DNA of 64,000 nucleotides. Source: a virus. Location of the stretch: IMG/VR virus record IMGVR_UViG_3300042317_001647, positions 1 through 64,000 of that record; one strand, written 5' to 3'. Numbering within the stretch: the first letter of the stretch is position 1; each line of letters opens with the position of its first letter. The position numbers and the translations under genes are program-made. The notes beneath the pieces are model-generated. The model did not search any database. It was given only the letters and a program-made list of their open reading frames with translations, and was not told the origin of the DNA. This document shows, piece after piece, positions 22,652-63,244 of this stretch.

Positions 22652-24181
22652 ATGGATATGAACAAAATTACAGTAATAAAAAGAAATGGCCAAAGAGAGC
22701 CATTGACCATTGAAAAATGGCAGTCCCAAATCGCTAAAGTATGCGCGGGAATAGCAGATGTCAGTCAATCAATGATTGAAATCAAGAGTCAGCCACACTA
22801 TTATGATGGTATCACAACCAAAGAAATCGATGAAATAACATTACGTGCAATCGTTGATCTTATTGATGTTGAAGCTAATCCTGATATTGGTCACACTAAC
22901 TATCAATTTGTAGCCGGTAAACAACGGTTATCTATGCTTCGCAAAGATGTATACGGACAATACAACCCACCGAGCCTCTATTCAATTGTGCAAAACAATA
23001 TAGCAATTGGTCTTTATACACCTGAATTATTATCATGGTACAGTGAAGATGATTGGAATAAAATGGACTCGTTTATTGATCATGACAAAGATGAGCAATA
23101 TTCATATGCTGCAATTGAGCAGTTGATTGAAAAATATCTGATCAGAAATCGTTCAACAAAAGAAGTATTTGAAACACCTCAAATACGATACATGGTTGCG
23201 GCAGCTACTGTCTTCCATAAAGAAGAACCAAATTCTGCTAGAATGAAATACATAAAGGAATATTACAATGCCGCATCTGATGGCCTTTTTACTTTGGCTA
23301 CTCCTGTTCTCGCTGGCCTCGGAACCCCCACAAAACAATTTAGCAGTTGCGTTCTTATACGCAGCGACGACGATCTTGATAGTATATTCGCCTCTGGAGA
23401 AATGATGGCCAAATATGCTAGCAAACGTGCTGGCATCGGATTAGAAGTTGGTAGATTACGTCCGTTAGGTTCGCCTATCAGAGGTGGAGAAATCATGCAT
23501 ACCGGCATGATTCCATTCTTAAAAAAATGGTTTGGTGATCTGAAAAGCTGTAGCCAAGGTGGTATCAGAAATGCGTCTTGTACAGTATATTTCCCAATCT
23601 GGCACTATCAATTTGATGATTTGATTGTATTAAAAAATAACCAAGGCACAGAAGAAACCCGTGTTAGACATATGGACTATGGGGTTGTATTATCGGCGCT
23701 ATTTTGGAGACGATTCAAAGCTAAAGAAAATATCACATTCTTTGATCCAAATGAAGTTCCAGAATTGTACGAAGCATTCTATAGAAATAATGCACAATTT
23801 GAAGAATTATACGTAAAATACGAAAAACGCAAAGATTTAAGAAAAAAAGTTATTTCAGCAGAAGAAGTATTCAAAGGTGGATTACTTAAAGAACGCACTG
23901 ATACCGGGCGTATTTACCTAATGTATGTTGATAATGTCCAAAATCAAGGACCATTTGATACTAACATTCACCCAATCTATCAATCAAATTTATGTGCAGA
24001 GATAGTGTTGCCTTCAGTTCCATTTAAGTCATTAAACGATGAAGGTGAGTTTAAATTAACATTGGATAATGGCGTTGATGTGGTATTACCAGGACAGCAT
24101 AAAGTTCTGTTAGCTAACGGTGATAAGAAAAAAGTTAGAGAACTAACCGAAGATGATGATATTAAAGATTTACTAATGTAA
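22652..24181 (+). CDS. nrdA: Ribonucleotide reductase large subunit, N-terminal piece
   Basis: 509 residues: ATP-cone (about 1-95) and the first part of the class I catalytic barrel. Visible key residues: the redox Cys in QFSSCVLI (about 233) and the Asn-x-Cys-x-Glu active-site triad in SNLCAEI (about 446-450). Canonical NrdA would continue straight to SLCTLG. Here, after LNDEGE, comes a 40-residue extension ending at TAA, and the rest of the enzyme is encoded 840 bases downstream after a GIY-YIG endonuclease gene. Function requires assembly with the second piece and NrdB. MDMNK offers two close ATGs. Confidence 0.88.
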   Translation: MDMNKITVIKRNGQREPLTIEKWQSQIAKVCAGIADVSQSMIEIKSQPHYYDGITTKEIDEITLRAIVDLIDVEANPDIGHTNYQFVAGKQRLSMLRKDVYGQYNPPSLYSIVQNNIAIGLYTPELLSWYSEDDWNKMDSFIDHDKDEQYSYAAIEQLIEKYLIRNRSTKEVFETPQIRYMVAAATVFHKEEPNSARMKYIKEYYNAASDGLFTLATPVLAGLGTPTKQFSSCVLIRSDDDLDSIFASGEMMAKYASKRAGIGLEVGRLRPLGSPIRGGEIMHTGMIPFLKKWFGDLKSCSQGGIRNASCTVYFPIWHYQFDDLIVLKNNQGTEETRVRHMDYGVVLSALFWRRFKAKENITFFDPNEVPELYEAFYRNNAQFEELYVKYEKRKDLRKKVISAEEVFKGGLLKERTDTGRIYLMYVDNVQNQGPFDTNIHPIYQSNLCAEIVLPSVPFKSLNDEGEFKLTLDNGVDVVLPGQHKVLLANGDKKKVRELTEDDDIKDLLM

Positions 24182-24202
24182 TAGTTAACATAACCTAATG
24201 TA

Positions 24203-24211
24203 CATAAATAC
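24203..24211 (+). promoter_or_regulatory. T4-type late promoter of the homing endonuclease
   Basis: CATAAATAC, followed by AAAAGGAGAA and the ATG at 24233. It gives the inserted gene its own transcript. Confidence 0.55.
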
Positions 24212-24232
24212 ATTATAAAAGGAGAATGTATA

Positions 24233-25009
24233 ATGTATATTGGGTTTATTTACGAATGGACTAATAATGTAAATGGTATGAAATATTTAGGGTCACATAA
24301 AGGAACTATAGACGATGGATATACCGGCAGTGGTTATAGATTTTTAAATGCGGTTAGAAAATATGGAATAGATATATTCACCCGGGTTATAGTTGAATAT
24401 GTACAATCCGAAGAACAATTGTTTATTCGAGAACAATTTTATCTAACCGCCCGTGATTGTGCTAATAGTAAAACTTACTATAACATTTCACCATCAGCGG
24501 GTGGTGGGGATACTGGGTCTGGTCATAAAATTAGCAAAGCACATAAAATTGCATTTGAAACTGGAACTCGCAAAGCTTGGAACAAAGGATGCACCCTAAC
24601 CTGCAACCAAAAAGCCAATTTATCAATAGATACCTGGGAGATTATAACACCAGACGGGGACACACTTATAGTAAGGAATATGTTAGATTTTTGTAAAACA
24701 CATTCATTAAATCCATCAACTATGAGTGCTGTTGCTAGAGGAAAGCGTGGTCATCACCATGGCTATAAATGTAAAAAACTTACAAATATTAGAAATGTAC
24801 CTTACGAATATGCCACATATCGATACCTGACATCAGAAGAAAAAAATAAAATTAATAGTGAATCTGTTAAAACTGCAAAGAGATTGAAAGCGTTGCCAAA
24901 AATAGAATTTGATGGCATTATTTATAATTCACTAGTCGATGCATCTATTAGTACTGGAAAGAGTAGATATATTTTAATAAAATACGGAAAATTATTAAGG
25001 AATAATTAA
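24233..25009 (+). CDS. GIY-YIG homing endonuclease inserted in nrdA
   Basis: 258 residues. N-terminal GIY-YIG nuclease: FIYEWTN (5-11) and KYLGSHKG (17-24), a following arginine-containing helix, and the metal-binding Glu in IREQFYL. The C-terminal part contains an IENR1/NUMOD1-like DNA-binding stretch (RNMLDFCKTHSLNPSTMSAV, about 145-164). Free-standing enzymes of this type (Seg-like) cut uninterrupted alleles and spread by repair. It has its own late promoter and ribosome site and separates the two nrdA pieces. Confidence 0.88.
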   Translation: MYIGFIYEWTNNVNGMKYLGSHKGTIDDGYTGSGYRFLNAVRKYGIDIFTRVIVEYVQSEEQLFIREQFYLTARDCANSKTYYNISPSAGGGDTGSGHKISKAHKIAFETGTRKAWNKGCTLTCNQKANLSIDTWEIITPDGDTLIVRNMLDFCKTHSLNPSTMSAVARGKRGHHHGYKCKKLTNIRNVPYEYATYRYLTSEEKNKINSESVKTAKRLKALPKIEFDGIIYNSLVDASISTGKSRYILIKYGKLLRNN

Positions 25010-25019
25010 GGAATAATTA

Positions 25020-25979
25020 ATGAAAATAATTAAAAAAGAATGCACCCGTGCTGTGCCAAAAATCAGTTTATGCACACTTGGAAGTATCAACTGGGGGGCT
25101 TTCAGAAACCCAGAAGATATGCGTAGGGCGTGTCGTATTCTACACCGCAGTCTTAACAATATTTTGGATTACCAAGACTTCTTATCAATCCAATCTAAAT
25201 TATCTAATGATGAAATTAGACCGCTAGGAATTGGTATTACAAATCTTGCATACTGGGCTGCTAAACGTGGATTCAAATACGGTGATCCAGATATGCTATC
25301 AGAAGTAAAAAGTTGGATTGAACATCTAGCATATTATACCACCGAATCCAGTGTTGAATTAGCAAAAGAACGCGGTGCGTGTGAGCATAGTCATTTAACG
25401 AGATACGGCCAAGGTATATTCCCATGGGAATTACGTGCAGAGGGTGTTAATGAGTTAACTGATTTCACACCAGAATTAGACTGGGAAACCTTACGAGCTA
25501 GTATGAAACAATATGGAGTTAGAAATGCCACACAAATGGCTATCGCACCAGTTGAATCCAGTTCTGTTGTTATCAATAGCACAAATGGAATTGAAATGCC
25601 AATGCAGTTAATTCAAACCAAAGAATCAAAAGCTGCATCATTAACGCAAGTAGTTCCAGAATACCATAAACTGAAAAATAAATATCAGTTACTATGGGAC
25701 CAGACTGATTGCATAGGTTACTTAAAAACTGCATCTGTTTTAGCAGCATATGTCGATCAAGCAATCTCAGTGAATACTTTTTATTCGCCTAAACACTTTC
25801 CAGATAGAAAAGTACCAGGAACATTAATTGCGAAAAATTTGATGTTAGGACATAAATGGGGACTAAAAACCTTTTATTACTCACTTATAGATAAAGCTGG
25901 TTCAAAAGCAGAAGATGAAGTTGATTTACCAAGCGGTATTGATGAAGGTGAAGCAGATTGCGAATCTTGCAAATTATAA
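25020..25979 (+). CDS. nrdA: Ribonucleotide reductase large subunit, C-terminal piece
   Basis: 319 residues, beginning with a non-canonical MKIIKKECTRAVPK tail and then ISLCTLGSINWG, which holds the second redox Cys (about 18). The radical-transfer tyrosine pair is in KTFYYS, and the C-terminal shuttle cysteines are in DCESCKL. With the N-terminal piece it covers the whole of class I NrdA. An 11-base tandem duplication (GGAATAATTAA twice) precedes the ATG and supplies its ribosome site; it probably dates from the insertion event. Confidence 0.88.
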   Translation: MKIIKKECTRAVPKISLCTLGSINWGAFRNPEDMRRACRILHRSLNNILDYQDFLSIQSKLSNDEIRPLGIGITNLAYWAAKRGFKYGDPDMLSEVKSWIEHLAYYTTESSVELAKERGACEHSHLTRYGQGIFPWELRAEGVNELTDFTPELDWETLRASMKQYGVRNATQMAIAPVESSSVVINSTNGIEMPMQLIQTKESKAASLTQVVPEYHKLKNKYQLLWDQTDCIGYLKTASVLAAYVDQAISVNTFYSPKHFPDRKVPGTLIAKNLMLGHKWGLKTFYYSLIDKAGSKAEDEVDLPSGIDEGEADCESCKL

Positions 25980-46969: not shown

Positions 46970-47506
46970 ATGAGTTTAAAAGAGATCACCAAAGATTTGC
47001 ACACGGAAGCTGAAAAAACATCTTTTGCAAAATTACTATTAACCGGTAAAATTTCACAAGAATTGTATACAAATTATCTATATCAGATGATGGCTGCATA
47101 CGGACCTGTAGAATTTGGGTGTAAAATATTAGGGTTTTTTGATAACTTACCAGGTATTGAACGTTTACCTGGAATTTACCAAGATTTTATTGAATTGCGT
47201 GATATCAATACACATTATGCGTTTTTACCAGAAACGATGGCTTATAATCAATATGTAGTAGATTTATTGAATGATCCGACACGTAGACATTTAATAAAAG
47301 CACATTTATATGTTCGTCACACGGGGGATTTATACGGTGGGCAATACATCGCAAAAACAACACCTGGTTCTGGAAAATTCTACCAGTTTGATGACGTAGA
47401 CGGATTAAGAAATGCAATTAGAGCAGAAATGACAGATGATTTAGGTGATGAGGCTAGAGTTGCGTTTGAATGGGCAATAAAAATCATGAAGGCGTTACAT
47501 GAATAA
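46970..47506 (+). CDS. Heme oxygenase
   Basis: 178 residues. Proximal heme ligand His11 in KDLHTEAEKTSFAK and distal-helix YVRHTGDLYGGQYIA (glycines about 119-124) define the HO family. Reaction: heme to biliverdin, iron and CO, with ferredoxin or another reductant. It starts immediately after clpS and overlaps the bilin reductase by eight bases, so biliverdin would be passed to the next enzyme. Known from T4-like cyanophages as ho1. Confidence 0.93.
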   Translation: MSLKEITKDLHTEAEKTSFAKLLLTGKISQELYTNYLYQMMAAYGPVEFGCKILGFFDNLPGIERLPGIYQDFIELRDINTHYAFLPETMAYNQYVVDLLNDPTRRHLIKAHLYVRHTGDLYGGQYIAKTTPGSGKFYQFDDVDGLRNAIRAEMTDDLGDEARVAFEWAIKIMKALHE

Positions 47507-48170
47507 ACTGCTGGATTCGTTAAATAGCATTCAGCAGTTATTCACACACCAGCTCGATGAATCAGGAAAAATTTCTGCTTCATCAATTGAGCAATTCAAT
47601 AACCCAGGTTGGTGTAATACCACCTGGGTTTCTGATTTATATAGAAAAGCACATATCAATGTTATTGATACAATGGATACTCGTGGGTTATGGATGATGC
47701 ATTGCTGCATTTATCCACATTATCATAACCCTGCACCAATTTTTGGGTTTGATGTGTTTGCCGGTAGAAATAAAATAACTGGGTGTTTTCATGATTTTAG
47801 CCCAGTCATTAGTAATCACCCATTATCATCTTGGTTTGACGAAGAATCAAATAAATTATCATGGAATAAAAAAAGAGAATTACCAGATTGGGGTAAACGT
47901 ATTTTCTCAGAATCGATAATTGCCGCTGGTAATATTCAACTAGATTCTGAGATATCTCAAATAGTGTCTACCATTTCATCCACCCTGCTAACATATCTTA
48001 TATCATTAAAAGATACCAATCACACAGTTCTTGATATTTCAGATAAACATAGGTTTTATATTGAAAATCAACGGCTTAACCCACACAATCCCAAAGTTCT
48101 AATGAATTTAGGTCTGACAGAAGATCAAGCATCTATCTATGTAACACAGTGTTTGTTTCCAATAGATTAA
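47499..48170 (+). CDS. Ferredoxin-dependent bilin reductase
   Basis: 223 residues. LWMMHCCIYPHYHNPAPIFG (65-83) with GFDVFAG (Asp85) and CFHDFSP matches the central FDBR signature. The C-terminus YIENQRLNPHNPKVLMNLGL and TQCLFPID matches the family end. FDBRs (PcyA, PebA, PebB, PebS, PcyX) reduce biliverdin to phycobilins. Which product forms cannot be told by eye. Translationally coupled to heme oxygenase. Phage relatives PebS (cyanophage) and PcyX (marine phage contigs) are known from the literature. Confidence 0.85.
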   Translation: MNKLLDSLNSIQQLFTHQLDESGKISASSIEQFNNPGWCNTTWVSDLYRKAHINVIDTMDTRGLWMMHCCIYPHYHNPAPIFGFDVFAGRNKITGCFHDFSPVISNHPLSSWFDEESNKLSWNKKRELPDWGKRIFSESIIAAGNIQLDSEISQIVSTISSTLLTYLISLKDTNHTVLDISDKHRFYIENQRLNPHNPKVLMNLGLTEDQASIYVTQCLFPID

Positions 48171-48224: not shown

Positions 48225-48704
48225 ATGACCAAAGTACTAGGTTTTTCATTATTAATTGTAGCATTATCTGTAAATTCATCCGAATTACAGCACACGTTTA
48301 ATAGTCCAGCATTTAGTGGCATTGGATTTAGCTCACATGCGTTAACACTAAATCAATTAGAAACGCAAGCATCTGATAAAAATAAAGCTGCTGCGGATGC
48401 ATTACGTACAAAGATATTATCTGATGCTCAAAATACTCCACAAGCTAAATTTTTAGCAAATTTAGAATCTAGAATTTACTCACAATTAGCTAAACAATTA
48501 ACTGACTCTATGTTTAGTGAAGGATCAACATGCACCACACCAGGAGCAGTATGCGGAACAATGCCAGATTTAGGCGGCAATAGTGTCACTTGGAGTTTAG
48601 GCGCTGGATTGGATCAAGGATTGATTATTATTAATATCACTAATAACTCAAACCCATCTCAATCCACATCAATGAAAGTACCATCTGGGTCATTTTATTT
48701 CTAA
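48225..48704 (+). CDS. csgF: CsgF-like curli assembly factor
   Basis: 159 residues with an N-terminal signal peptide (1-18 or so). LQHTFNSPAFSGIGFSSHAL followed by TLNQLETQAS parallels E. coli CsgF (TFQFRNPNFGG, LLNSAQAQ), the part that inserts into the CsgG pore, and the C-terminus ends in a beta segment. Family role: couples the secretion pore to fibre nucleation at the outer surface. First gene of the curli-like run, two bases ahead of csgG. Confidence 0.8.
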   Translation: MTKVLGFSLLIVALSVNSSELQHTFNSPAFSGIGFSSHALTLNQLETQASDKNKAAADALRTKILSDAQNTPQAKFLANLESRIYSQLAKQLTDSMFSEGSTCTTPGAVCGTMPDLGGNSVTWSLGAGLDQGLIIINITNNSNPSQSTSMKVPSGSFYF

Positions 48705-48706
48705 TT

Positions 48707-49525
48707 ATGAACAAAATTATTATTTTATCAATGATATTATTACAAGGGTGTGCTACCAGCAGTGCTATAAACAAATTTATCACAGGTGAACAATTTGACA
48801 ATCCGATTATCGAGCAAAGTATTTTTTTATTAAAAGATGAAAACAAATTAGATCCACCATCATCTGGATCTATCCCCATCGCAGTTTACGGGTTTACTGA
48901 TAAAACTGGTCAAAGAAAATCAATGCCAAATATTGCCAGTTTAAGTTCTGCGGTCACGCAAGGTGCTGAGAACTACTTGATTAAAGCATTACAAGATGTG
49001 GGTGATGCTAGATGGTTCACAGTGGTTGAACGAGTTGGGTTGGATAACTTGATCAAAGAACGACAGATGATTAGGCAAGCTCGTGAGCAATTCCAAGGTA
49101 AAGATGCACAAGCATTACCAGCTATGTTATTCGCAGGGGTTATAGCAGAAGGGGCAATTGTCGGTTATGATTCCAATACGTTGACAGGGGGTGCTGGGGT
49201 TCGGATTTTTGGAATCGGAGGCGAAACACAATATCAAAGTGACACAGTTACTGTGAGTCTGCGGACTGTATCAGTTACATCAGGCGAGATTTTAACATCG
49301 GTCACCGTAACAAAAACAGTGTTAAGTTATATGGATAAATTTGGTGTATTGAGATTCATTGCCGCCGACACCAAAGCATTAGAAGCAGAAATAGGTGGTA
49401 GCATAAACGAAAGTATTAATAGAGCAACTAATAAAGCTATCCAAGCCGCAGTTGTAGATACAGTTCGTGAAGGCGCTCGTAAAGGTCACTGGGCGTTTAA
49501 ATCAACAATGGAGCAAAGGAAATGA
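48707..49525 (+). CDS. csgG: CsgG-like outer-membrane secretion lipoprotein
   Basis: 272 residues. Lipobox LLQGC with Cys15 and no Asp at +2, consistent with outer-membrane sorting. PIAVYGFTDKTGQRK, GDARWFTVVERVGLDNLIKE and GAIVGYDSNTLTGGAGVR are hallmark CsgG segments, and a C-terminal helix follows. CsgG forms the nonameric curlin export channel. Overlaps the next gene by ATGA, so pore and fibre subunit are coupled. No CsgE is seen. Confidence 0.93.
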   Translation: MNKIIILSMILLQGCATSSAINKFITGEQFDNPIIEQSIFLLKDENKLDPPSSGSIPIAVYGFTDKTGQRKSMPNIASLSSAVTQGAENYLIKALQDVGDARWFTVVERVGLDNLIKERQMIRQAREQFQGKDAQALPAMLFAGVIAEGAIVGYDSNTLTGGAGVRIFGIGGETQYQSDTVTVSLRTVSVTSGEILTSVTVTKTVLSYMDKFGVLRFIAADTKALEAEIGGSINESINRATNKAIQAAVVDTVREGARKGHWAFKSTMEQRK

Positions 49526-50319
49526 AACTAAAAATAATTAATTATTTAATAGCATCATTAATGGTATCTTTTTCATCATTATTATTAGCAACCGGCACTG
49601 CAACTGGTCCCAATAATGTGTTCATGGAACAATTAGGCAATACTAATGTTATTACAATCGAACAGGTAGGCGGCACCAATAATATAGGAGGTATATCTGG
49701 AACTATCACAACTGATGCCAATACTAATGTGGTTACAAATGTACCAGATGCACCAAGTGCATCTAATTATGCCACTATCAATGGTGGCAGCAATACACTG
49801 TCAATGACACAACACGGGAATAACAACTGGGCACAATATATCATCAGAGGAAGTAACAATCGCTATTCAAATACTGTTACTGGGAATGATAACAATAATA
49901 GATTAGTGATCGGTGATACCAATCATACAGATAATCATCATGTTGTTATCACCGAAACTATTACTGGCAATTCAAACTCAGTTATCCAAAATATCATAGG
50001 CAATTATATTTCTAGTACTTTAGGAATTACGGGCAATAGTAATCAGGTCACAGAAAATCTTTTAAGTACTAATGGTGTGTCTGATATAAGCATCACGGGA
50101 AATAGTAATTTGTTAAACGTCGAGCAAAGTGATGTCGCTGGGGCTATTGGTCACAATTTAAAAGAAGTAATTGTTGGTAATTTTAATGCTATCACCACTC
50201 AACAACAAGGAACGAATGACACTACTATTGATATCAAGACATCAGGTGATAATAATATAATCACGGTTAGATCTAGCTCAAGTACAATAGTAAATGCACA
50301 AGCCGCTATAGCAAGATAG
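49522..50319 (+). CDS. Curlin-repeat fibre protein (CsgA/CsgB-like)
   Basis: 265 residues with signal peptide (1-23). Repeats of the type NVITIEQVGGTNN, NTLSMTQHGNNN and NAITTQQQGTNDT show the curlin pattern (hydrophobic-x-Q-x-G-x-x-N) of CsgA/CsgB. Asn-rich in between. Predicted substrate of the CsgG pore and the likely amyloid or amyloid-like fibre subunit. Longer and less regular than CsgA (151 residues). Stop is TAG; two bases separate it from the FecR gene. Confidence 0.8.
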   Translation: MKLKIINYLIASLMVSFSSLLLATGTATGPNNVFMEQLGNTNVITIEQVGGTNNIGGISGTITTDANTNVVTNVPDAPSASNYATINGGSNTLSMTQHGNNNWAQYIIRGSNNRYSNTVTGNDNNNRLVIGDTNHTDNHHVVITETITGNSNSVIQNIIGNYISSTLGITGNSNQVTENLLSTNGVSDISITGNSNLLNVEQSDVAGAIGHNLKEVIVGNFNAITTQQQGTNDTTIDIKTSGDNNIITVRSSSSTIVNAQAAIAR

Positions 50320-50321
50320 TT

Positions 50322-51419
50322 ATGCATATAATTCCGGTAATAATTTTGTTATTATCATCACAAGTTGCTTATGCTGGTATAGGGACAGTAACCGATGCCA
50401 CGAGCAATGGGTGTAAAATTGAAAGAAATAAAAAGAATATTCCTGGGGATAAAGGTGTTATTATAGAAAGTATGGATGTTTATATTACTGGCAGTTGTAC
50501 CAGCAATATAACATTCAAAGACGATACTAAAGTAAAAGTTACAGAAAATAGTCGGCTTTTAATTGATGATTTTGTTTTCGATCCAAAAGCTAGCGATGCA
50601 AGTAAACTAGCATTAAAAGTTGGTATGGGTACAGTAAGATATGCATCAGGTCAAATTGCAAAAAATAACCCACAACAAGTAAATATTAAAACGCCAGCTG
50701 CCACAATTGCGGTTAGGGGAACTGATTTCACTATGACAGTTGATGAATCTGGACAAAGTTTAATCGTTTTAGTCCCGAGCTGCAAGGATGAAAAAGATAT
50801 CAAAAAATACGAATTAGCTGAAAATACCTGCAAAGTAGGGAAAATTGAAGTAGAAACATTGGCTGGAAAAGTAATTCTTGACGAAGCATTTCAAGCTACA
50901 TTTGTACAAAGTGCAACCATCTCACCAACCCCGGCTACATCAATTAATATAATTGAGTCGAAAATAACCAATAATCTGATTATCGTAAAACCATTAGAAG
51001 TACAGAGAGTTATGAAAGAAGTAATGAAATCCCCAAGAGATAAGGAATTAGAAGAAATAGAAGCCGAAGCCGCACGTAGGGTTGCAAATCAAGTTTCAAA
51101 AAGCGGCGAGGAAATTGAACAAGCAAGGATTCTAGCAATGATGGCAGCTGCTGGTAAATTAGGGTGTAATGCGGTTACAAGTATATGCGTTGCGTGGGAT
51201 AAAAATAATGATGATATCAGAGATCGTGGCAAAGGGACAGCTTTTCGAATTGCACCGTTTGAACATTATTCTGAAATAAAAACACAAGGATTTAATTCTA
51301 ATACTACAATTAATATTATTCAAAATAGTGTATCAGCATCAACCATTATAGGTGATGGTAGCCCAGGTGGAAATATAGTGACTATTACACAAAATACTGG
51401 AGTAATACAAATAAAATGA
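50322..51419 (+). CDS. FecR-domain protein with curlin-like C-terminus
   Basis: 365 residues: signal peptide (1-18), FecR domain (about 45-150, KVGMGTVRYASG then KTPAATIAVRGTDF), an Ala/Glu-rich helical stretch (about 230-270) and a C-terminal tail with NTTINIIQNSVSA and NIVTITQNTG curlin-like repeats. FecR domains sense or scaffold in the periplasm and often accompany CHASE2 cyclases in bacterial genomes (from memory). The shared repeats suggest it docks to the curlin-like fibre. Overlaps the next gene by ATGA. Confidence 0.8.
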   Translation: MHIIPVIILLLSSQVAYAGIGTVTDATSNGCKIERNKKNIPGDKGVIIESMDVYITGSCTSNITFKDDTKVKVTENSRLLIDDFVFDPKASDASKLALKVGMGTVRYASGQIAKNNPQQVNIKTPAATIAVRGTDFTMTVDESGQSLIVLVPSCKDEKDIKKYELAENTCKVGKIEVETLAGKVILDEAFQATFVQSATISPTPATSINIIESKITNNLIIVKPLEVQRVMKEVMKSPRDKELEEIEAEAARRVANQVSKSGEEIEQARILAMMAAAGKLGCNAVTSICVAWDKNNDDIRDRGKGTAFRIAPFEHYSEIKTQGFNSNTTINIIQNSVSASTIIGDGSPGGNIVTITQNTGVIQIK

Positions 51420-52525
51420 AATATATATTATTGTTTTTGATATCATTTCGTGTATTAGCAGATGGAGTACTCGGCCTCGAATATGTTGCGTATACCGCAG
51501 GAGGCGCAACACCTACCAGAACAACCAATAGAACCATTCTATCATCCGGTATAGTCCCATCATTAAATTATAATTGGGGCAGTGGTATAGTCATGGATTC
51601 AGGACGCACAGATGGTGTACTAGTTCATTTTACAGGAAACATTTTATGGCCAGGTCCGTCAGGCAATAAAACAATAACTTTCTATAACAGAAGTGATGAT
51701 GGATTCTATATGTCAATCAATAACACCACTGTTATTAACAATTGGATTGAACAAGGACCAGCAAATTTTAATGGTTCTGGGAGTATTACGCTGACTTCAG
51801 GACAAGTGTACACTATAGATGTGTGGTGGTATGAGAATGGAGGGGGTGCAGTTATTCAACTAAATTGGGATGTTGGGTCCGGAATAGTAGTTGTACCTAC
51901 TAACAATTTAGCTACCTCTCCTAGCTATTTTGTACCACCATTGTGCTGTGGCGGGTCATCATTTCAATTCAATACAAATACGGTAAATGCCGCAAATGTC
52001 CAATCATTTATAAACCGAGCAACATCTGATACACAGGTTTATATCGAGCAAATTGGTGATTTAAATACAATAACAATTACTCAATCTGGGTCTAAAAATA
52101 ATTTTGTTAATTACTATGGTGTTGGATCTAATAATACTGTTAATATTGACGAAACTTTGTCATCAATATCTGGTACGAATTACACAGAATTAATTATTTT
52201 AGGCAATAATAACAACGCTTCTATATTACAACTCAGTTCGGGCGGAGATAAGGGAATATTTTCTAAAATTAATGGTGATAATAACTCATTATTATCTCAA
52301 CAAAAAGATAACGGAAATCATTACCTTGAAATTGAATTGAATGGCAATAATAAAAACGTAGATACATTACAACAAGGATCAGGAAATCATATGGCCAAGA
52401 TCATAATATCAGGGCAGCCAACTGATCTCAGTCTTTCACAAAGCGGCAATACCAATCAGTCATATTCTATAAATTTCAATTGTGCGACACTAGGAGGATG
52501 TGCTAAAATTTCAGTTCAGCAATAA
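51416..52525 (+). CDS. PA14-like adhesin with curlin repeats
   Basis: 369 residues: signal peptide (1-15), PA14-type sugar-binding region (about 20-170; FYNRSDDGFYMSINN, YTIDVWWYENGGGAVIQLNW), then from about 200 curlin-type repeats (VYIEQIGDLNTITITQSGSK, NVDTLQQGSGN). Predicted secreted tip or minor subunit that could attach carbohydrates to the fibre. Last gene of the tightly coupled csgF-to-PA14 run. Confidence 0.78.
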   Translation: MKYILLFLISFRVLADGVLGLEYVAYTAGGATPTRTTNRTILSSGIVPSLNYNWGSGIVMDSGRTDGVLVHFTGNILWPGPSGNKTITFYNRSDDGFYMSINNTTVINNWIEQGPANFNGSGSITLTSGQVYTIDVWWYENGGGAVIQLNWDVGSGIVVVPTNNLATSPSYFVPPLCCGGSSFQFNTNTVNAANVQSFINRATSDTQVYIEQIGDLNTITITQSGSKNNFVNYYGVGSNNTVNIDETLSSISGTNYTELIILGNNNNASILQLSSGGDKGIFSKINGDNNSLLSQQKDNGNHYLEIELNGNNKNVDTLQQGSGNHMAKIIISGQPTDLSLSQSGNTNQSYSINFNCATLGGCAKISVQQ

Positions 52526-52529
52526 TTCT

Positions 52530-52539
52530 AAATAAATAC
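52530..52539 (+). promoter_or_regulatory. T4-type late promoter (AATAAATAC)
   Basis: AAATAAATAC, about 22 bases before the ATP-grasp ATG; starts a second transcript for the ligase and cyclase. Confidence 0.5.
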
Positions 52540-52560
52540 AGTTTAATATATAGGAAACCC

Positions 52561-53430
52561 ATGTCAGTTTTAATACTAACTAAACACGCAACCCACGATT
52601 TTGAAACTCTAAAATTATTAGAGAGTTTTGTGGATAAGAATATAACTGTAAAAGTCTGTAATTTTAATTTATTTGATATTGTAATCAATGATGGTATTTA
52701 TTATCAAGGAATTAAATTCGATCTACCAAAAATAGTGTTAGTAAGATTGGGTGCTGGTATTACCCGTTCAGAACTATCGGTTATCAGATACTTCGAATTA
52801 GCCAATATTCCATGCATTAATTCAAGTGAAAGTATTAATATAGTCCAGGATAAATTTCAAACTAGTGAAATATTAAGCCGCAATAATATCCCAGTACCAA
52901 CCACAATGGTGGTCAAGTTTCCAATAACAAATAATTTAGTGGCCACTACAATTGGATTTCCTTGTGTAATCAAAGTAGTAGTTGGTAGTTTTGGTGAAGG
53001 GGTATACCTATGTCAATCCGAGCTCGAATATACTAGAATTATCGAATTCGTAGATGCACTTCATAATGAAAAAACATTAATTGCACAAGAGTATATTGGT
53101 GATCGCCCAGGTGAGGATTTAAGAGTGTTTGTGGTTGGTGGCAAAGTTCTGGGCGCAATGAAAAGAACCGCACCAAAAAATGACTTTAGAGCCAATATAT
53201 CAAATGGTGGGACTGGCGAGAAATACGAAGTTACCCCAGAAATAGAAGAGATTGCAATTGACACAGCAGATGTGCTAGGATTAGACATAGCCGGTATTGA
53301 TTTGCTTTTTACAAAAGAAGGATTTGTTGTGTGTGAAGCAAATTCAAACCCAGGATTTAGCGGATTTAACCAATATTGTAATGTTAATGTCGCAGACCAC
53401 ATTGTAAACTATATAGAAAATATGTTATGA
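52561..53430 (+). CDS. RimK-like ATP-grasp ligase
   Basis: 289 residues. ATP-grasp signatures: FPCVIKVVVGSFGEGVYLC (Lys and Gly-rich loop), EDLRVFVVGGKVLGAMKR, and the Mg-binding tail GIDLLF to CEANSNPGF. This is the RimK/LysX subgroup, which adds glutamate or other amino acids to proteins or small acceptors. The substrate is unknown; ribosomal protein modification or a peptide tag are options. Overlaps the cyclase gene by four bases (ATGA), so the two are co-translated. Confidence 0.88.
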   Translation: MSVLILTKHATHDFETLKLLESFVDKNITVKVCNFNLFDIVINDGIYYQGIKFDLPKIVLVRLGAGITRSELSVIRYFELANIPCINSSESINIVQDKFQTSEILSRNNIPVPTTMVVKFPITNNLVATTIGFPCVIKVVVGSFGEGVYLCQSELEYTRIIEFVDALHNEKTLIAQEYIGDRPGEDLRVFVVGGKVLGAMKRTAPKNDFRANISNGGTGEKYEVTPEIEEIAIDTADVLGLDIAGIDLLFTKEGFVVCEANSNPGFSGFNQYCNVNVADHIVNYIENML

Positions 53431-55496
53431 TTAAAAAAATATTATTAAACCCTTGGACGGCATTATTAACATTGATTGTAATATTAAGTGTTCGAATTTC
53501 TGATCCAGAATTTGTGGAAAGTGTTAGATTACGATATTTTGACACGCTTATTTCAGCAAAACCTATCACAAATAATCCAATTTATACTATTAATATCGAT
53601 GAAAACTCATTAGATAAGTATGGACAATGGCCATTTAAACGCGATATATATTCCCAAATAGTCGAAGATCTATATAAACATAATGCTGGATTGGTTGTTC
53701 TCAATATTTTAATGCCTGAAACCGACCGCCAAGGTGGGGATAAGATATTGGCTGAAACATTAAAAAATAATCAGATTATCTTACCAAGTATACCAGCCGA
53801 TTTTACTAAAAATACACCAAGAATCACAGGTGCAGCTGTATTAGGACCAGATTATTTAGATAGGATAATCCAATACCCAGGTATCATTTCAAATATAGAG
53901 ATTTTAAACGACAAAGCAGCAGGTGTTGGCACAGTTAATACCTTACCAGAAATAGACGGTGTTAATCGTAGAATGCCATTAGTGGTTTCAGTTAAGGATA
54001 AGTTATACCCATCGTTAGGTTTAGAAACATTGCGGGTTGCGGCTGGTGATACTACATTCCAAATCAAACTAAATGAAAATGGTGTTGAAAAACTGAGAAT
54101 TCCTAAATTTGGACCGATCACTACTGATAATTTAGGCCGTATCTGGATTGATTGGAGTCAGAAGTCTATCAACAAAGGTTTAAATACTATCACAGATGAT
54201 TACGATTTTATTGGTGGGATCGTCATTGTTGGACCAACCGCAGCAGGGATTGGTAACCCAATACCAACTGCCAATGGTGCTATCTTTCCACATGAAGCAC
54301 AAGCAGCAGTAATAGGAACAATGATGAATGGGGTTTTTATCCAACGCCCTGATTATGCAGATGGCGTGGAGGTATTAGTATTATTAATAACTGGTACTAT
54401 ATTGTTATTCCTCACTAGATGGATTTATATTGGGCTAGCATCAATAATTGCACTGTCAGTTGGTGCCGTATTCGCCAGTCACTATGTATTTTTAACATAT
54501 TTGTATCTGTTTGACATAACTGCTTTCGTAAGTGGTATAGTGTTGGTTGGTTTACATGCTTACGGTGTTAAATTCCTCAGTGAATTCTTTCAAAAGCAAC
54601 AAATTAAAAAACAATTTGGCACTTATTTAAGCCCTGCTTTAGTAGAAAAATTACAGAAAAATCCTGAATTATTAACATTAGGCGGTGAGTCACGTGAACT
54701 TTCAATTATGTTTACAGATGTACATGGATTCACATCTATTTCAGAACATTATGGTAAAAATGTACAAGGATTGACACAAATAATGAACCGTTATATGACT
54801 GCTATGACCGCAAAAATCATTGAAAACGATGGAACATTAGACAAATATATCGGCGATGCTCAAATGGCGTTTTGGAATGCCCCACTAGATGACCCCGATC
54901 ATGCAAAACATGCTGTAAAAACAGCATTACAAATGTTAATTAACTTAAAGGAGTTTAATGATGAGATCGAGAAAGAGGGGGTACCTGCATTCGGTATGGG
55001 ACTTGGTATTAACACTGATACTGTCGTTGTTGGTAATATGGGTAGCAATCAGCGCTTTGATTATACTTGCCTTGGAGATGGGGTTAACCTCGCTTCACGT
55101 CTTGAAGGCCAAAGCAAGCCATACGGCGTCAAAATCGTTCTGGGCACGAAGACAGCAGACTATATCAAAGACGAATACTTTATAATCGAACTTGATAAAA
55201 TCGCGGTAAAAGGTAAGAAAGAAGGCGTACACATTTTTACTGTGTTAAGCCATTTGGATGATTTTAATCATGATGATTATTATTATCCAGCATTATCTTA
55301 CCACAACCAAATGTTAAATGCCTATCGAAGCAAACATTGGGATGTGGCTTCTGAAATGTGTAAACAATTATTATGTGAGTTTGATGGTGACATGGATCAT
55401 TATTATGAAATGATGATTGATCGTATTGCTGAATACAAAAACAGTAATTCATTACCAAAAGTTTGGGATGGCACATTTGTTGCCACTAGTAAGTAA
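53427..55496 (+). CDS. CHASE2 adenylate cyclase, membrane-bound
   Basis: 689 residues. TM at 10-25, extracytoplasmic CHASE2 sensor (about 30-310), three TMs (about 315-395), short linker, class III cyclase domain (about 425-610). The cyclase has both metal Asp residues (FTDVHGFTS; YIGDAQMAFWN), the purine-specifying Lys in DKYIGD and Asp in FDYTCLGD, and the transition-state Asn/Arg in NLASRLEG, so it should be active on ATP. A C-terminal 65-residue tail follows. A full sensor-cyclase is very unusual in phage. Confidence 0.92.
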   Translation: MIKKILLNPWTALLTLIVILSVRISDPEFVESVRLRYFDTLISAKPITNNPIYTINIDENSLDKYGQWPFKRDIYSQIVEDLYKHNAGLVVLNILMPETDRQGGDKILAETLKNNQIILPSIPADFTKNTPRITGAAVLGPDYLDRIIQYPGIISNIEILNDKAAGVGTVNTLPEIDGVNRRMPLVVSVKDKLYPSLGLETLRVAAGDTTFQIKLNENGVEKLRIPKFGPITTDNLGRIWIDWSQKSINKGLNTITDDYDFIGGIVIVGPTAAGIGNPIPTANGAIFPHEAQAAVIGTMMNGVFIQRPDYADGVEVLVLLITGTILLFLTRWIYIGLASIIALSVGAVFASHYVFLTYLYLFDITAFVSGIVLVGLHAYGVKFLSEFFQKQQIKKQFGTYLSPALVEKLQKNPELLTLGGESRELSIMFTDVHGFTSISEHYGKNVQGLTQIMNRYMTAMTAKIIENDGTLDKYIGDAQMAFWNAPLDDPDHAKHAVKTALQMLINLKEFNDEIEKEGVPAFGMGLGINTDTVVVGNMGSNQRFDYTCLGDGVNLASRLEGQSKPYGVKIVLGTKTADYIKDEYFIIELDKIAVKGKKEGVHIFTVLSHLDDFNHDDYYYPALSYHNQMLNAYRSKHWDVASEMCKQLLCEFDGDMDHYYEMMIDRIAEYKNSNSLPKVWDGTFVATSK

Positions 55497-58659: not shown

Positions 58660-59177
58660 ATAGTCTAACTTAAATCTGGTACATAGTATAAATGATCAGG
58701 AGTGGTACGCCATTATTGAACCATAGTTAGATATTTAATTTATCTATGCTAACATATAGAAGTCATAGAGTTCTATTTAGTAGCTCTACCTTAACAGGCT
58801 GAAGTCGCAAGGGTGTGCGGTATAGATATACAGAATTGTTGTAATTCCTTCAACGAGGAAGCGTTCAAGACGCGGGTTCGAAACCCGCCAGCTCCACCAT
58901 AAGAACATAGGTTGGTATCAGAGTGGGGCCATAGCCATAAACTCCCTGCCCCTTAAAAGGGGAGTATCTATGTTTTTATGATGGGGCTGTATTGGATTCG
59001 ATTGGGCGAAGAGTTAGAGAAGGCAACAGGAGAGATGACTGACCTAATCAGCATAAACATAGTAATCGCAAACGATTCTAAATTTGAATTCTACACTGTA
59101 GATGGCATCTTTGATGCTATCGCTGCTTAATAACCAGCGAATTCTGGGGTAGGAAATACCTTATAACCAAAAATACC
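58660..59177 (+). ncRNA. ssrA: Circularly permuted (two-piece) tmRNA
   Basis: The tRNA-like 3' half comes first: T arm GCGGGTTCGAAACCCGC and CCA end at 58897-58899. The 5' half starts at 58983 with GGGGCTG, then GGATTCGA. GGGGCTG (58983-58989) pairs fully with CAGCTCC (58889-58895). Helix P2 is supported by TTGGGCG/CGTTCAA and GAAGG/CCTTC across the pieces. Tag frame: resume GCA at 59068, ANDSKFEFYTVDGIFDAIAA, then TAA TAA (59128-59133). The intervening segment 58900-58982 begins and ends in an 11-bp helix (58900-58910/58968-58978) next to the mature ends. Rescues stalled ribosomes with SmpB. Confidence 0.9.
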
Positions 59178-59206
59178 TAGTAGGGAGAAATCCCTACTAT
59201 CTTTTT
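59178..59206 (+). terminator. Rho-independent terminator of the tmRNA gene
   Basis: TAGTAGGGA (59178-59186), loop GAAA, TCCCTACTA (59191-59199), then TCTTTTT. Confidence 0.92.
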
Positions 59207-59231
59207 ACACATTCACATTCAAAAGGGTATT

Positions 59232-60371
59232 ATGAAGTCTTTTAAACCTGTTCAAGTGTCATCATCTGGTACTGAAGTTTCAGTTAAACAGTCATTTACA
59301 CCAGTTTCACCTAAACAATTGTCAGATTTAGGCGCATCCAATCCTCGTGTACTCCAATTACTTTCAACATTTGATTCACCAACCGGGATTATCGATTACG
59401 GGGCGGATGTTATGTCAGATATTGCCAAAAAATCAGAAGCTTTATTAAATGAAGTCAAAGATGCTGACGTTGACTTCGTTGAACAACAGTTAACTAGTAT
59501 TCTAACAATGGCGAAGACATTTCACCTGAATACGAACAATAATTCAGATTCAAATATCTCAAAACTCTTTGGAAAGATCAAAGAAAAGTTTATTAATGTC
59601 CGTGAACAACTTTCAGCAGAATTCACTGATGTGTCCACACAAATGGACAAAATTATTGACGAAATTGATCAAGCCAATCACAGAATTATTGCCAAATTAA
59701 ACGGTCTGCAAGTGCAATACCGTGAAAATTTGAATGAATATCACAGATTAGAAAATTTGATCAAAGATGCAGAAGAAGCATACCAAATAATGGCAAAAGA
59801 AATTGAAAAAATGCGGGTTAACGCATCAGATCTCCTTGCCGCCGAAGAAGTTAATAGAAGTACAAAAAATTTAGATCGATTGGAGAAGAAAATCGATTAT
59901 TTGAAGAAATTTCAAATGATGGCTATTCAAAATGCACCTTCAATTAGTCAAATGGAAGATAGTGCTGCAACATTACTCCAAAAATTCCATGATATCAAAA
60001 CTATGACTATTCCATTATGGAAAAGACAAATCAGAATGTATATAGATGGTCAAGAATTAAGAAAAAGTGCAGCATTAGCAGCAGCAGTAGATGATGCAAA
60101 CAATACTCTAATTAAAACCAATTCAAACATCATTAGTGCTAATTCAATTGAATCAGCAAAATTAAACCAACGTTCATTGATAGATGATGCTACAATAGAA
60201 CATGTACATCAAAACCTAATCAGTACATTAGGAGAAATTGTGCAAATAAACAATACTGGTAAAGAAACTAGAATTAAAAGTGCATCGAGAATGGATGAAA
60301 TGAAGCGCATGTATGCTTCCATTTCATCTAATGCTGGACGGACCACTATTGCAGGACCAAAAACCCATTAA
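59232..60371 (+). CDS. TelA-family toxic-anion resistance protein
   Basis: 379 residues, almost wholly helical, with the TelA layout: N-terminal disordered segment, long coiled coil (about 120-235), IPLWKRQIRMYIDGQELRKS and SIESAKLNQRSLIDDATIEH near the C-terminus. TelA/YceH-type proteins accompany Ter proteins in bacterial stress islands; mechanism unknown. Heads the Ter cassette directly downstream of the tmRNA terminator; AAGGGT before ATG. Confidence 0.85.
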   Translation: MKSFKPVQVSSSGTEVSVKQSFTPVSPKQLSDLGASNPRVLQLLSTFDSPTGIIDYGADVMSDIAKKSEALLNEVKDADVDFVEQQLTSILTMAKTFHLNTNNNSDSNISKLFGKIKEKFINVREQLSAEFTDVSTQMDKIIDEIDQANHRIIAKLNGLQVQYRENLNEYHRLENLIKDAEEAYQIMAKEIEKMRVNASDLLAAEEVNRSTKNLDRLEKKIDYLKKFQMMAIQNAPSISQMEDSAATLLQKFHDIKTMTIPLWKRQIRMYIDGQELRKSAALAAAVDDANNTLIKTNSNIISANSIESAKLNQRSLIDDATIEHVHQNLISTLGEIVQINNTGKETRIKSASRMDEMKRMYASISSNAGRTTIAGPKTH

Positions 60372-60401
60372 TTTTTTAACAATCAACCGAGATAAGTAAA
60401 A

Positions 60402-61082
60402 ATGGCTATTGATTTAACTAAAAGAGCAGAAAAAGTAGGTATCATCCTAACTAAAAAACAAATCCGTGACATTCCATGCCAAGTAAAACTGGCAATTGAT
60501 CGCAGTGGGTCCATGAATACCCTATATCGCAACAAAGTCGTTCAAGATGTGGTAGAACGAGTGCTAGCAATTGGTATGAACATCGATAAAGATAAAATTA
60601 TTGACATTTGGGCATTTCATAATGATTCATTTGAGCTGCCATCAGTCAATATTAGCAACATCGAAGACTTTGTTGACCGTGAAATCGTCAAAAAAATTAG
60701 TGAAGGTGGTACAGAGTATGCACCAGTCATGAAAGACATCGTTAATAGTGCCGCACCAGTACAAACTGGCCTATTTGGGAAGTTGTTTGGGAAGAAATCT
60801 AATTCAACTGACCCATCATTAGCTATTTTCATCACCGATGGCGAGAATTTCGATCAACAAGCAACTGAAAAGGTTATCATAGAATCACAATCTAAAGATT
60901 TATATTGGGTTTTGATCGGTATTGGTGGTGGGAACTTCTCATTTATCGAATATTTGGGCGAAAAATACCCAAATGCCGGTTATTTGAAGATAGATGATAT
61001 CGAAAGTATCAGTGATGAAGACTTATATGAAGACATTATCAGCCAAGAATTTGCTGATTGGGTCGGAAAGTTTAAAAAATAA
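60402..61082 (+). CDS. VWA-domain protein of the Ter cassette
   Basis: 226 residues. MIDAS metal site DRSGSM (about 33-38), the Thr in GGTEYAP and Asp in FITDGE are all present. The N-terminus (INLTKRAEKVGIILTKKQ-like, MAIDLTKRAEKVGI) resembles the start of TerD proteins, as in TerF-like proteins. Family role: scaffold or sensor in Ter stress complexes. Ends just before a regulated promoter for terC. Confidence 0.85.
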   Translation: MAIDLTKRAEKVGIILTKKQIRDIPCQVKLAIDRSGSMNTLYRNKVVQDVVERVLAIGMNIDKDKIIDIWAFHNDSFELPSVNISNIEDFVDREIVKKISEGGTEYAPVMKDIVNSAAPVQTGLFGKLFGKKSNSTDPSLAIFITDGENFDQQATEKVIIESQSKDLYWVLIGIGGGNFSFIEYLGEKYPNAGYLKIDDIESISDEDLYEDIISQEFADWVGKFKK

Positions 61083-61110
61083 TTGACATACCTGAATTTA
61101 CAGGTAGAAT
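61083..61110 (+). promoter_or_regulatory. Promoter with palindromic operator before the TerC-like gene
   Basis: TTGACA (61083-61088), 16-base spacer, TAGAAT (61105-61110). TACCTG (61089-61094) and CAGGTA (61101-61106) fill the spacer as an inverted repeat with 6-base centre. Confidence 0.75.
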
Positions 61111-61145
61111 GAAGATTCTTTCAACAAACACACAGGTAATAATCA

Positions 61146-62153
61146 ATGTTACAATATTTTAAAGGTTCTTTTTTGATTGCTGGTATCGGTATCGTACTAG
61201 CATATTTGATCGGTGGGCTCGAAGCAGCCTGGATCACGTTAGTTTTATCAATTCTTGAAGTTAGTTTGAGTTTTGATAATGCCGTCGTGAATGCACAAGT
61301 TCTAAAAGGAATGGATGATATATGGCGTCATCGTTTCATTACCTGGGGTATGGCTATTGCTGTATTTGGTATGAGAATGGTGTTTCCATTAGCAATTGTG
61401 TCAGTTGCATTGGGAATTAACCCATATTCATCATTCATGTTAGCAGTTAATGACCCAGAACAGTATTCTCATGCGCTAGAATCAGTCCATACCTCAGTCA
61501 TGGGTTTCGGTGGCACATTCCTAATGATGGTTGCATTAAAGTTTTTCATCGATCATGACAAAGATACGCATTGGCTTAAACCAATTGAAGAAAGATTCAC
61601 TAAATTAGGCAAAATTGAAGCAATACAATCTGCAATTACATTAGTATTGGTATATATTGTTTACAAAATCATCGGATCCACACATAATGAAACAGAAGCA
61701 TCAGCATTCTTGGTCGCAAGTGTATTCGGATTAGTAACGTACATTCTTGTCGATGGTTTAGAAGCAGTAATCGGGACTGATGATGGCACGGTTACAGGTG
61801 CAGTAGCCAAATCCGGGTTAGCATCGTTTCTTTACTTGGAAGTATTAGATGCAAGCTTCAGTTTCGACGGAGTATTAGGTGCATTAGCATTGACAAACAA
61901 TATTTTCATCATCATGATTGGCCTTGGTATCGGTGCGTTATTCGTAAGAAGCTTAACATTACTAATGGTAGATAAGGGCACTGTTGATGAATTCATTTAC
62001 CTAGAGCATGGTGCATTCTATGCAATATTTGGATTGGCTATCATCATGTTCGTAAATACTGTATACGAAATTCCAGAAAGCATTACAGGGTTGATTGGTG
62101 CTGCATTCATTGGTGCATCATTGATCTCTTCAATCAAACACAAATCAATTTAA
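61146..62153 (+). CDS. TerC-superfamily membrane protein (DUF475 type)
   Basis: 335 residues with about nine TMs. Two acidic membrane motifs, EVSLSFDNAVVNA (38-50) and LDASFSFDGVLGALAL (about 235-250), mark the inverted-repeat TerC fold thought to bind metal ions (Mn/Ca export in relatives). Own promoter and AGGT ribosome region. Host cytoplasmic membrane. A membrane transporter is rare phage cargo, but ter genes are known in some large phages. Confidence 0.88.
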   Translation: MLQYFKGSFLIAGIGIVLAYLIGGLEAAWITLVLSILEVSLSFDNAVVNAQVLKGMDDIWRHRFITWGMAIAVFGMRMVFPLAIVSVALGINPYSSFMLAVNDPEQYSHALESVHTSVMGFGGTFLMMVALKFFIDHDKDTHWLKPIEERFTKLGKIEAIQSAITLVLVYIVYKIIGSTHNETEASAFLVASVFGLVTYILVDGLEAVIGTDDGTVTGAVAKSGLASFLYLEVLDASFSFDGVLGALALTNNIFIIMIGLGIGALFVRSLTLLMVDKGTVDEFIYLEHGAFYAIFGLAIIMFVNTVYEIPESITGLIGAAFIGASLISSIKHKSI

Positions 62154-62176
62154 TTAAACTACCAAGAGGTAATAAC

Positions 62177-62746
62177 ATGGCAATTAATCTTGCAAAATCT
62201 GAAAATAAAGGTATCAACCTAACCAAATCACAACCTGCCATGGGAAAGGTAAAGGCAGTATTATGGTGGAATGTTCCAGATAACAATCCAAAATATGATT
62301 TAGATGTATCAGCGTTTGTTTTGAAAACAACCGATAATGGTCCGAAGTTGTTAGGTGATGACTATTTGGTGTTCTATAACAATGAAGCGACACCTGAAAA
62401 AAGTGTTTCAAAAACACCAGATATGCGTCAAGGTGGTACCGAAGAGGTTTTCATCGATATCAATACGTTACCAGCAACAGTTGATGAAATTTCAATTGTT
62501 GTAACCATCCATGAAGCTGTATCTCGTGGTCAGTCTTTTGGTCAGGTACCTGAAGCAGGTATCAAAATCTTAAATGCTGATACCAATGAGGAAATTGCAT
62601 TCTATGATCTAGATGCTGACTACAAAAATGAAACAGCCGTTCAAGTTGGATCATTCTTCAAACGTGATGGACAATTCTCATTCCAGGCAATTGGAGCCGG
62701 GTTCGATGGTCTTGAGTTAGGCGATATCGTCAGCGGTTATCAATAA
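62177..62746 (+). CDS. terD: TerD-domain calcium-binding stress protein
   Basis: 189 residues. KYDLDVSAFVL and FYDLDADY are the two DLD-type calcium-binding loops, and QVGSFFKRDGQFSFQAIG completes the fold. TerD proteins are cytoplasmic and associate with TerC/VWA proteins under metal or phage stress. AAGAGGT before the ATG. Followed by a strong terminator. Confidence 0.93.
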   Translation: MAINLAKSENKGINLTKSQPAMGKVKAVLWWNVPDNNPKYDLDVSAFVLKTTDNGPKLLGDDYLVFYNNEATPEKSVSKTPDMRQGGTEEVFIDINTLPATVDEISIVVTIHEAVSRGQSFGQVPEAGIKILNADTNEEIAFYDLDADYKNETAVQVGSFFKRDGQFSFQAIGAGFDGLELGDIVSGYQ

Positions 62747-63169: not shown

Positions 63170-63244
63170 GCACCCGAAGCTACTAGGTATAGCACAAGCC
63201 TCTAAAACTTGCGACAATGGGTTCGAATCCCATCGGGTGCACCA
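63170..63244 (+). tRNA. Suppressor-type tRNA, anticodon CTA (reads UAG)
   Basis: 75 bases with encoded CCA. Acceptor GCACCCG/CGGGTGC, D stem GCTA/TAGC, T arm ATGGG-TTCGAAT-CCCAT all pair. Anticodon arm CAAGC-CTCTAAA-ACTTG has four pairs plus a C-A mismatch beside the loop; T33 and A37 are in place, so the anticodon is CTA (63202-63204). Shifting the register by one breaks T33 and most pairs. Position 8 is A rather than the usual T. The amino acid cannot be inferred by eye. Confidence 0.82.

Follow-up and report, generated by a model that had tools for sequence, protein, structure and literature searches.

What use might a phage have for a set of genes resembling those of curli, or type VIII, secretion? 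The question is raised by seven genes in IMG/VR virus record IMGVR_UViG_3300042317_001647, a 73-kb fragment of which positions 1 to 64,000 have been analyzed here (this whole stretch of 64,000 nucleotides is called the window). Since 2020, pore, uptake, coat and capture models have competed to explain phage curli. The genes of the block are as follows.

48225..48704, + strand: CsgF homologue, 159 aa, with a putative Sec signal; predicted partner of the CsgG pore (Pfam CsgF)
48707..49525, + strand: CsgG homologue, 272 aa, predicted outer-membrane lipoprotein pore with lipobox LQGC (Pfam; profile against E. coli CsgG)
49522..50319, + strand: Cur1, a curlin-repeat protein, 265 aa, probable main fibre subunit (motifs; profile match to 8c50_A)
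50322..51419, + strand: FecR-domain secreted protein, 365 aa, with a single C-terminal curlin repeat (Pfam FecR)
51416..52525, + strand: Cur2, 369 aa, composed of a signal, a PA14 head (about residues 20-160), a CCGG linker and a 13-strand curlin stem (206-368)
52561..53430, + strand: RimK-family ATP-grasp ligase, 289 aa, co-located and probably outside the curli module (TIGR00768)
53427..55496, + strand: CHASE2 sensor with class III adenylate cyclase, 689 aa, membrane anchored (Pfam; alignment to CyaC)

An earlier note, made from the sequence alone, had described seven genes on the same strand, and the open reading frames were confirmed at these coordinates, with overlaps or gaps of a few to 35 bases between neighbours. 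At least one Pfam domain above the curated cut-off was found in six of the seven proteins, Cur1 being the exception, and the HMM search upheld these families named in that note: CsgF (31.6 bits, cut-off 25.8), CsgG (166.2), FecR (39.7), PA14 (37.9), RimK (160.7), CHASE2 (126.9) and Guanylate_cyc (71.3). A scan of viral sequences gave 49 IMG/VR loci with CsgG relatives (69-100% identity over the best segment), on contigs reaching 372 kb. CsgF adjoins CsgG on its upstream side in all 49, and every locus with sufficient flank keeps Cur1 (45 loci), FecR (43) and Cur2 (38). Because the module order recurs in these 49 viral loci, as it does in two isolate genomes, a chimeric assembly or a bacterial insert, either of which would have undone the earlier reading, is ruled out. 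The dN/dS values are about 0.02-0.21 across all module genes (for CsgF, loci L052-L058 are left out, as the start taken there lay out of frame), and indicate purifying selection. It is thus established, as far as sequence can tell, that the block encodes a predicted export pore with its cap, together with a pair of curlin subunits and the FecR-curlin protein, and that purifying selection acts on all of them.

The earlier note knew of no such complete set; this does not hold, since the set was in print for pelagiphages between 2020 and 2022. A tblastn search of CsgG against 50,697 phage records found two records of HTVC008M, four strains of Melnitz and a single short record without annotation, and the gene order in HTVC008M and Melnitz is CsgF-CsgG-curlin-FecR-curlin-cyclase. 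A pelagimyophage curli operon was reported with unclear function and “sibling capture” was proposed (Zaragoza-Solas 2020, PMC7029224), the Melnitz pore was proposed to be a gated secretin or pinholin (Buchholz et al. 2022, PMC9004378), and a further study of podo- and myophages (2022, PMC9599517) named CsgA/B, FecR and the cyclase, gave phage curli an alphaproteobacterial origin and detected transcripts. As the order has already been described in these three papers, the block is no new system; a published one gains from this analysis a variant and a function that can be tested. The pelagiphage modules (HTVC008M, Melnitz and HTVC023P-type podoviruses) have the same gene set and order as the window, also without CsgE, except that RimK is inserted before the cyclase in the window, and the window CsgG is 43-45% identical to the CsgG of HTVC008M and Melnitz. 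HTVC008M gp018 combines PA14 and curlin repeats like the window Cur2, and HTVC008M FecR also has a curlin tail. The window differs from pelagiphages in belonging to a separate lineage with probable methanotroph hosts in place of SAR11 or OM43, in the presence of RimK in part of that lineage, and in an upstream block of Hsp70, Hsp20, ClpS, haem oxygenase and bilin reductase, which also precedes the module in many of the viral loci. With enterobacterial csgBA/csgDEFG the window shares CsgG and CsgF homologues and curlin-repeat proteins, and differs in that no CsgE was found, one subunit has a head domain, and FecR and the CHASE2 cyclase are in the operon.

A separate lineage of large freshwater phages, several of them with pmoC, has the module as a fixed feature, and this is a new occurrence of it. 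PmoC was found in 6 of 21 records, including that of L011/G427, the nearest to the window in the tree of CsgG plus FecR; no pmoC was found in the 73-kb fragment that is the window record. The phage PmoC of the L034 record is 82% identical to the PmoC of a bacterial genome in the class searched. The presence of PmoC in relatives points to a methanotroph as the probable host, and a SAR11 host for this lineage finds no support. Six AmoC-bearing bacterial genomes were searched for CsgF and none had it; the fibre would therefore be brought by the phage. PmoC, as in the window's relatives, and Hsp20 are features of the phages with pmoC that Chen et al. described (2020, PMC7674155), in a paper whose main text makes no mention of curli or CsgG; one of these phages, CB_2, carries haem oxygenase and bilin reductase, both known phage auxiliary genes (PMC11480375). 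In the window these two genes, the reductase being ferredoxin-dependent, lie at 46970-48170, directly 5' of the curli block. Phage-type modules also occur in contigs binned into MAGs of Flavobacteriaceae, Rhodobacteraceae, Pirellulales, Pelagibacter and others (L059-L070 and L072). Since most carry a complete phage-type module, they are probably misbinned phage contigs; one of them, L064, additionally carries Hsp20-ClpS-haem oxygenase-bilin reductase, which supports this reading.

RimK (TIGR00768, 229 bits against a cut-off of 143.4) had been counted as a member of the set in the earlier note, and here the note has to be revised. The gene is present in only 9 of 21 records, sits upstream of csgF in some and downstream of Cur2 in others, and is found in every one of the six PmoC-positive records (Fisher p=0.0015, uncorrected for relatedness). 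Because of this patchy presence, shifting position and association with PmoC, RimK is placed outside the module and is rejected as a core enzyme modifying the fibre; it is best regarded as a lineage gene, perhaps with a role in a C1 cofactor. A RimK-fold ligase gene named cofF was reported in CB_1 and CB_2 by Chen et al. (2020).

Three of the parts by which type VIII secretion is recognized were found in the block, namely a CsgG lipoprotein pore, CsgF and secreted curlin-repeat subunits. The phage CsgG profile matches E. coli CsgG structures with E=8.9e-69, and its lipobox cysteine C15 is invariant in the phage alignment. In an alignment of CsgF from 11 phages, E20, F25, P28, F30, S31 and G32 are invariant; the CsgF profile had no significant match in the PDB. 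Hydrophobic N-terminal segments are present in CsgG, Cur1, FecR and Cur2, and the N-terminus of CsgF is signal-like. The curlin assignments are secured by evidence other than Pfam. Five curlin motifs were counted in Cur1 (0.08 in shuffled sequence), three in Cur2, a number matched by 1 of 2000 shuffles, and one in FecR. The family profiles of Cur1 (E=9.3e-7) and Cur2 (E=8.8e-20) match 8c50_A, a PDB entry deposited as “Curlin associated repeat-containing protein”. The Pfam curlin repeat, on the other hand, is the weakest Pfam assignment, with 16.2 bits for Cur2 by hmmscan (26.4 bits with stretches summed) and a score under the cut-off for Cur1. AF2 models, which rest on 28-30 related sequences and are modest (mean pLDDT 68 and 79), give a repetitive beta structure for Cur1 (pTM 0.76), for which Foldseek found no significant fold match in the PDB, and a Cur2 stem of 13 regular strands at residues 206-368, mostly with pLDDT of about 80-91. 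The exported composite fibre predicted in the earlier note agrees with the three secreted curlin-repeat proteins, the CsgG lipobox, the purifying selection and the homology to 8c50.

Through the FecR protein the fibre genes gain a concrete tie to the cyclase, which had previously seemed a loose neighbour. A C-terminal curlin half-repeat is present in all 34 unique complete phage FecR proteins, HTVC008M and Melnitz included, while the motif occurs elsewhere in these proteins at only 3 of 10,841 positions. None of 11 bacterial FecR homologues has it, so that phage FecR is unlike the bacterial FecR proteins compared, which is a new finding; the tail is present also in two phage-type modules in MAG contigs (L119 and L120). 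Bacterial FecR lies near CHASE2 proteins without curli in 3 of the 11 loci. Seven alphaproteobacterial curli loci (L089-L095) have CsgF-CsgG followed or flanked by curlin proteins as here, but unlike in the phage module no FecR or CHASE2 cyclase was detected in the 16 kb around them. It is plausible that phages brought the curli operon and the FecR-CHASE2 pair together, and that the curlin tail links them physically.

The earlier note credited the cyclase with all residues needed for catalysis, and in the alignment to CyaC (1wc1) all six catalytic positions are indeed kept: two Asp, which we take to bind metal, Lys and Thr, presumably for adenine, and Asn and Arg, presumably for the transition state. 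The hydrophobic segments are at residues 2-30 and 310-379. A search with PF00027 found no cNMP-binding protein in 14 phage records, which speaks against a cAMP receptor encoded by the phage; cNMP-binding proteins are present in all six AmoC-bearing genomes, and a host receptor is therefore possible. The likely role of the FecR-CHASE2 cyclase pair is to sense the export of the fibre. The cyclase is usually, not always, near the module: it is on the opposite strand in L022, and no full cyclase gene was found within the 20 kb covered in L050. Its gene is interrupted in L013 (14724-17620) and L017 (15705-18369), and the L017 insert carries an open reading frame of a homing-endonuclease-like family. 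Glycosyltransferase-like and metallophosphoesterase-like genes lie between Cur2 and the cyclase in L015, L020, L026 and L031.

In Cur2 the curlin stem, at the C-terminus, is constant and the N-terminal head varies. The head is PA14 in the window, HTVC008M and L031, a single or tandem F5/8 type C domain in L024, L026 and L038, one of two conserved domains without a Pfam name (labelled “QWN” and “YNA”) in others, and unmatched in L050, and Cur2 is headless in L017, L021, L022 and Melnitz. Such exchangeable heads on a fixed stem are a new feature of the module. Neither they nor the FecR-curlin tail were found mentioned in the available text of PMC7029224, PMC9004378 and PMC9599517, and the words “PA14”, “discoidin” and “CHASE2” are absent from the last of these. 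On a tree of 31 phages constructed from CsgG plus FecR, the nine architecture states require at least 14 changes, compared with a minimum of 8 and with 20.7 (18-23) for shuffled labels; the heads therefore retain some family signal yet are replaced frequently. Between L023 and L040 the DNA is 90% identical over 3.5 kb, from csgF through the Cur2 signal peptide; the heads then differ in length (183 and 442 residues) and in domain type, and the stems match again (78%), which is a clean cassette swap between signal peptide and stem. In L014 and L033 the heads are 73% identical and the stems 51%, which suggests transfer of a head. The window head matches PA14 adhesin domains in the PDB (MpAFP, RTX adhesin and Flo flocculins) with modest scores, and it keeps an adjacent Asp pair (SDDG) that we take to be a feature of calcium-dependent PA14 lectins. 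A PA14 domain in a gene whose head is swapped repeatedly agrees with the sugar-binding part predicted in the earlier note. From the head swaps on a constant stem we infer that the head would bind an extracellular target varying with host or habitat.

We consider it fairly probable that an infected cell, probably a methanotroph, displays a composite curlin fibre with a swappable sugar-binding Cur2 head for adhesion, and that the FecR-cyclase pair reports on it by cAMP. The block would then be a phage-borne type VIII secretion module, in which CsgG would be the pore in the outer membrane, capped by CsgF; Cur1 would probably be the main fibre subunit, and Cur2 may be a minor or tip subunit presenting the carbohydrate-binding head. 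FecR with its curlin end would join the fibre pathway to the CHASE2 cyclase, and fibre export or attachment may be reported as cAMP. Adhesion is the most likely purpose in view of the repeated head exchange, whether it keeps sibling cells or progeny in contact or serves attachment to polysaccharide, and the constant stem with swappable heads makes the function of phage curli testable. As the hosts are probably methane oxidizers, an adhesive fibre made by a phage could alter cell aggregation or settling. Melnitz-infected cultures showed no clumping according to PMC9004378, a result qualified by the lack of a separate head in Melnitz Cur2. Only tentatively do we extend this to a fibre-coupled device for sensing and adhesion, in which a lectin-type head is swapped by cassette recombination between phages, the curlin-tailed FecR drives the CHASE2 cyclase, and cAMP alters the infection.

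The head turnover bears also on a protective coat, put forward for pelagiphages in PMC9599517, in which the infected cell is protected by curlin fibres against superinfecting phages or grazers and the heads reflect the masked surface or arms races. Frequent turnover would fit an arms race as well; lectin-type heads akin to flocculins and adhesins, however, suit binding over masking, and although sequence separates the two poorly, we regard the coat as unlikely.

The pore itself is the subject of two further explanations. The constriction loop of the phage CsgG departs from E. coli at the positions that we take to be Tyr, Asn and Phe there. This would suit a role of CsgG and CsgF as a gated secretin or pinholin that depolarizes the cell and times lysis, the other genes being incidental, as in the published Melnitz model (Buchholz et al. 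2022). Because no locus with enough flank retains the pore without Cur1, FecR and Cur2, this explanation is weakened; the curlin proteins are under purifying selection, head exchange would be senseless for a pore, and we judge it distinctly improbable. CsgE, a periplasmic gate that not every curli system has and whose absence the earlier note had noticed, was found in none of 18 phage records (the 73-kb record and 17 relatives), with E. coli as a positive control, and is missing also from the published phage modules; this may bear on how efficiently the fibre is secreted. The lack of this gate in the records searched would fit uptake of large nutrients such as siderophores or cobalamin through an ungated CsgG pore, with FecR as an iron regulator, as proposed in PMC7029224 and PMC9599517, but two curlin proteins and variable heads are left unexplained and FecR lacks a sigma-factor partner within the block and bears a curlin repeat, so that uptake has very little probability. 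Just as improbable is a place for the curlin proteins on the virion instead of in secreted cell-surface fibres, since, for all the other repetitive fibre genes in the same phage, the signal-like hydrophobic N-termini and the linked CsgG lipoprotein argue for export and the curli block is apart from the tail genes.

Apart from the composite fibre module, several other features were observed in the window. Large tail-fibre-like genes with collagen-like repeats are at 1371-3764 and 7499-13309. A permuted tmRNA gene of beta-proteobacterial type is at 58786-59221, and a two-piece tmRNA likewise lies close to the curli block of Melnitz. In the window, no candidate glutamine riboswitch scored as high as the Rfam gathering threshold. 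A tRNA gene with a CUA anticodon and an encoded CCA is at 63170-63244; ARAGORN calls it tRNA-Pyl, and it could be an amber suppressor. TAG is the stop codon in 4 of 42 listed genes, Cur1 included, and suppression in Cur1 by this tRNA was rejected as read-through would gain only a few residues until the next stop. The large subunit of ribonucleotide reductase is in two open reading frames with a GIY-YIG-like one between them (22652-25979), which suggests a homing endonuclease or intron. A row of tellurite-resistance-type genes (TelA, TerF-vWA, TerC/DUF475 and TerD) is at 59232-62746.
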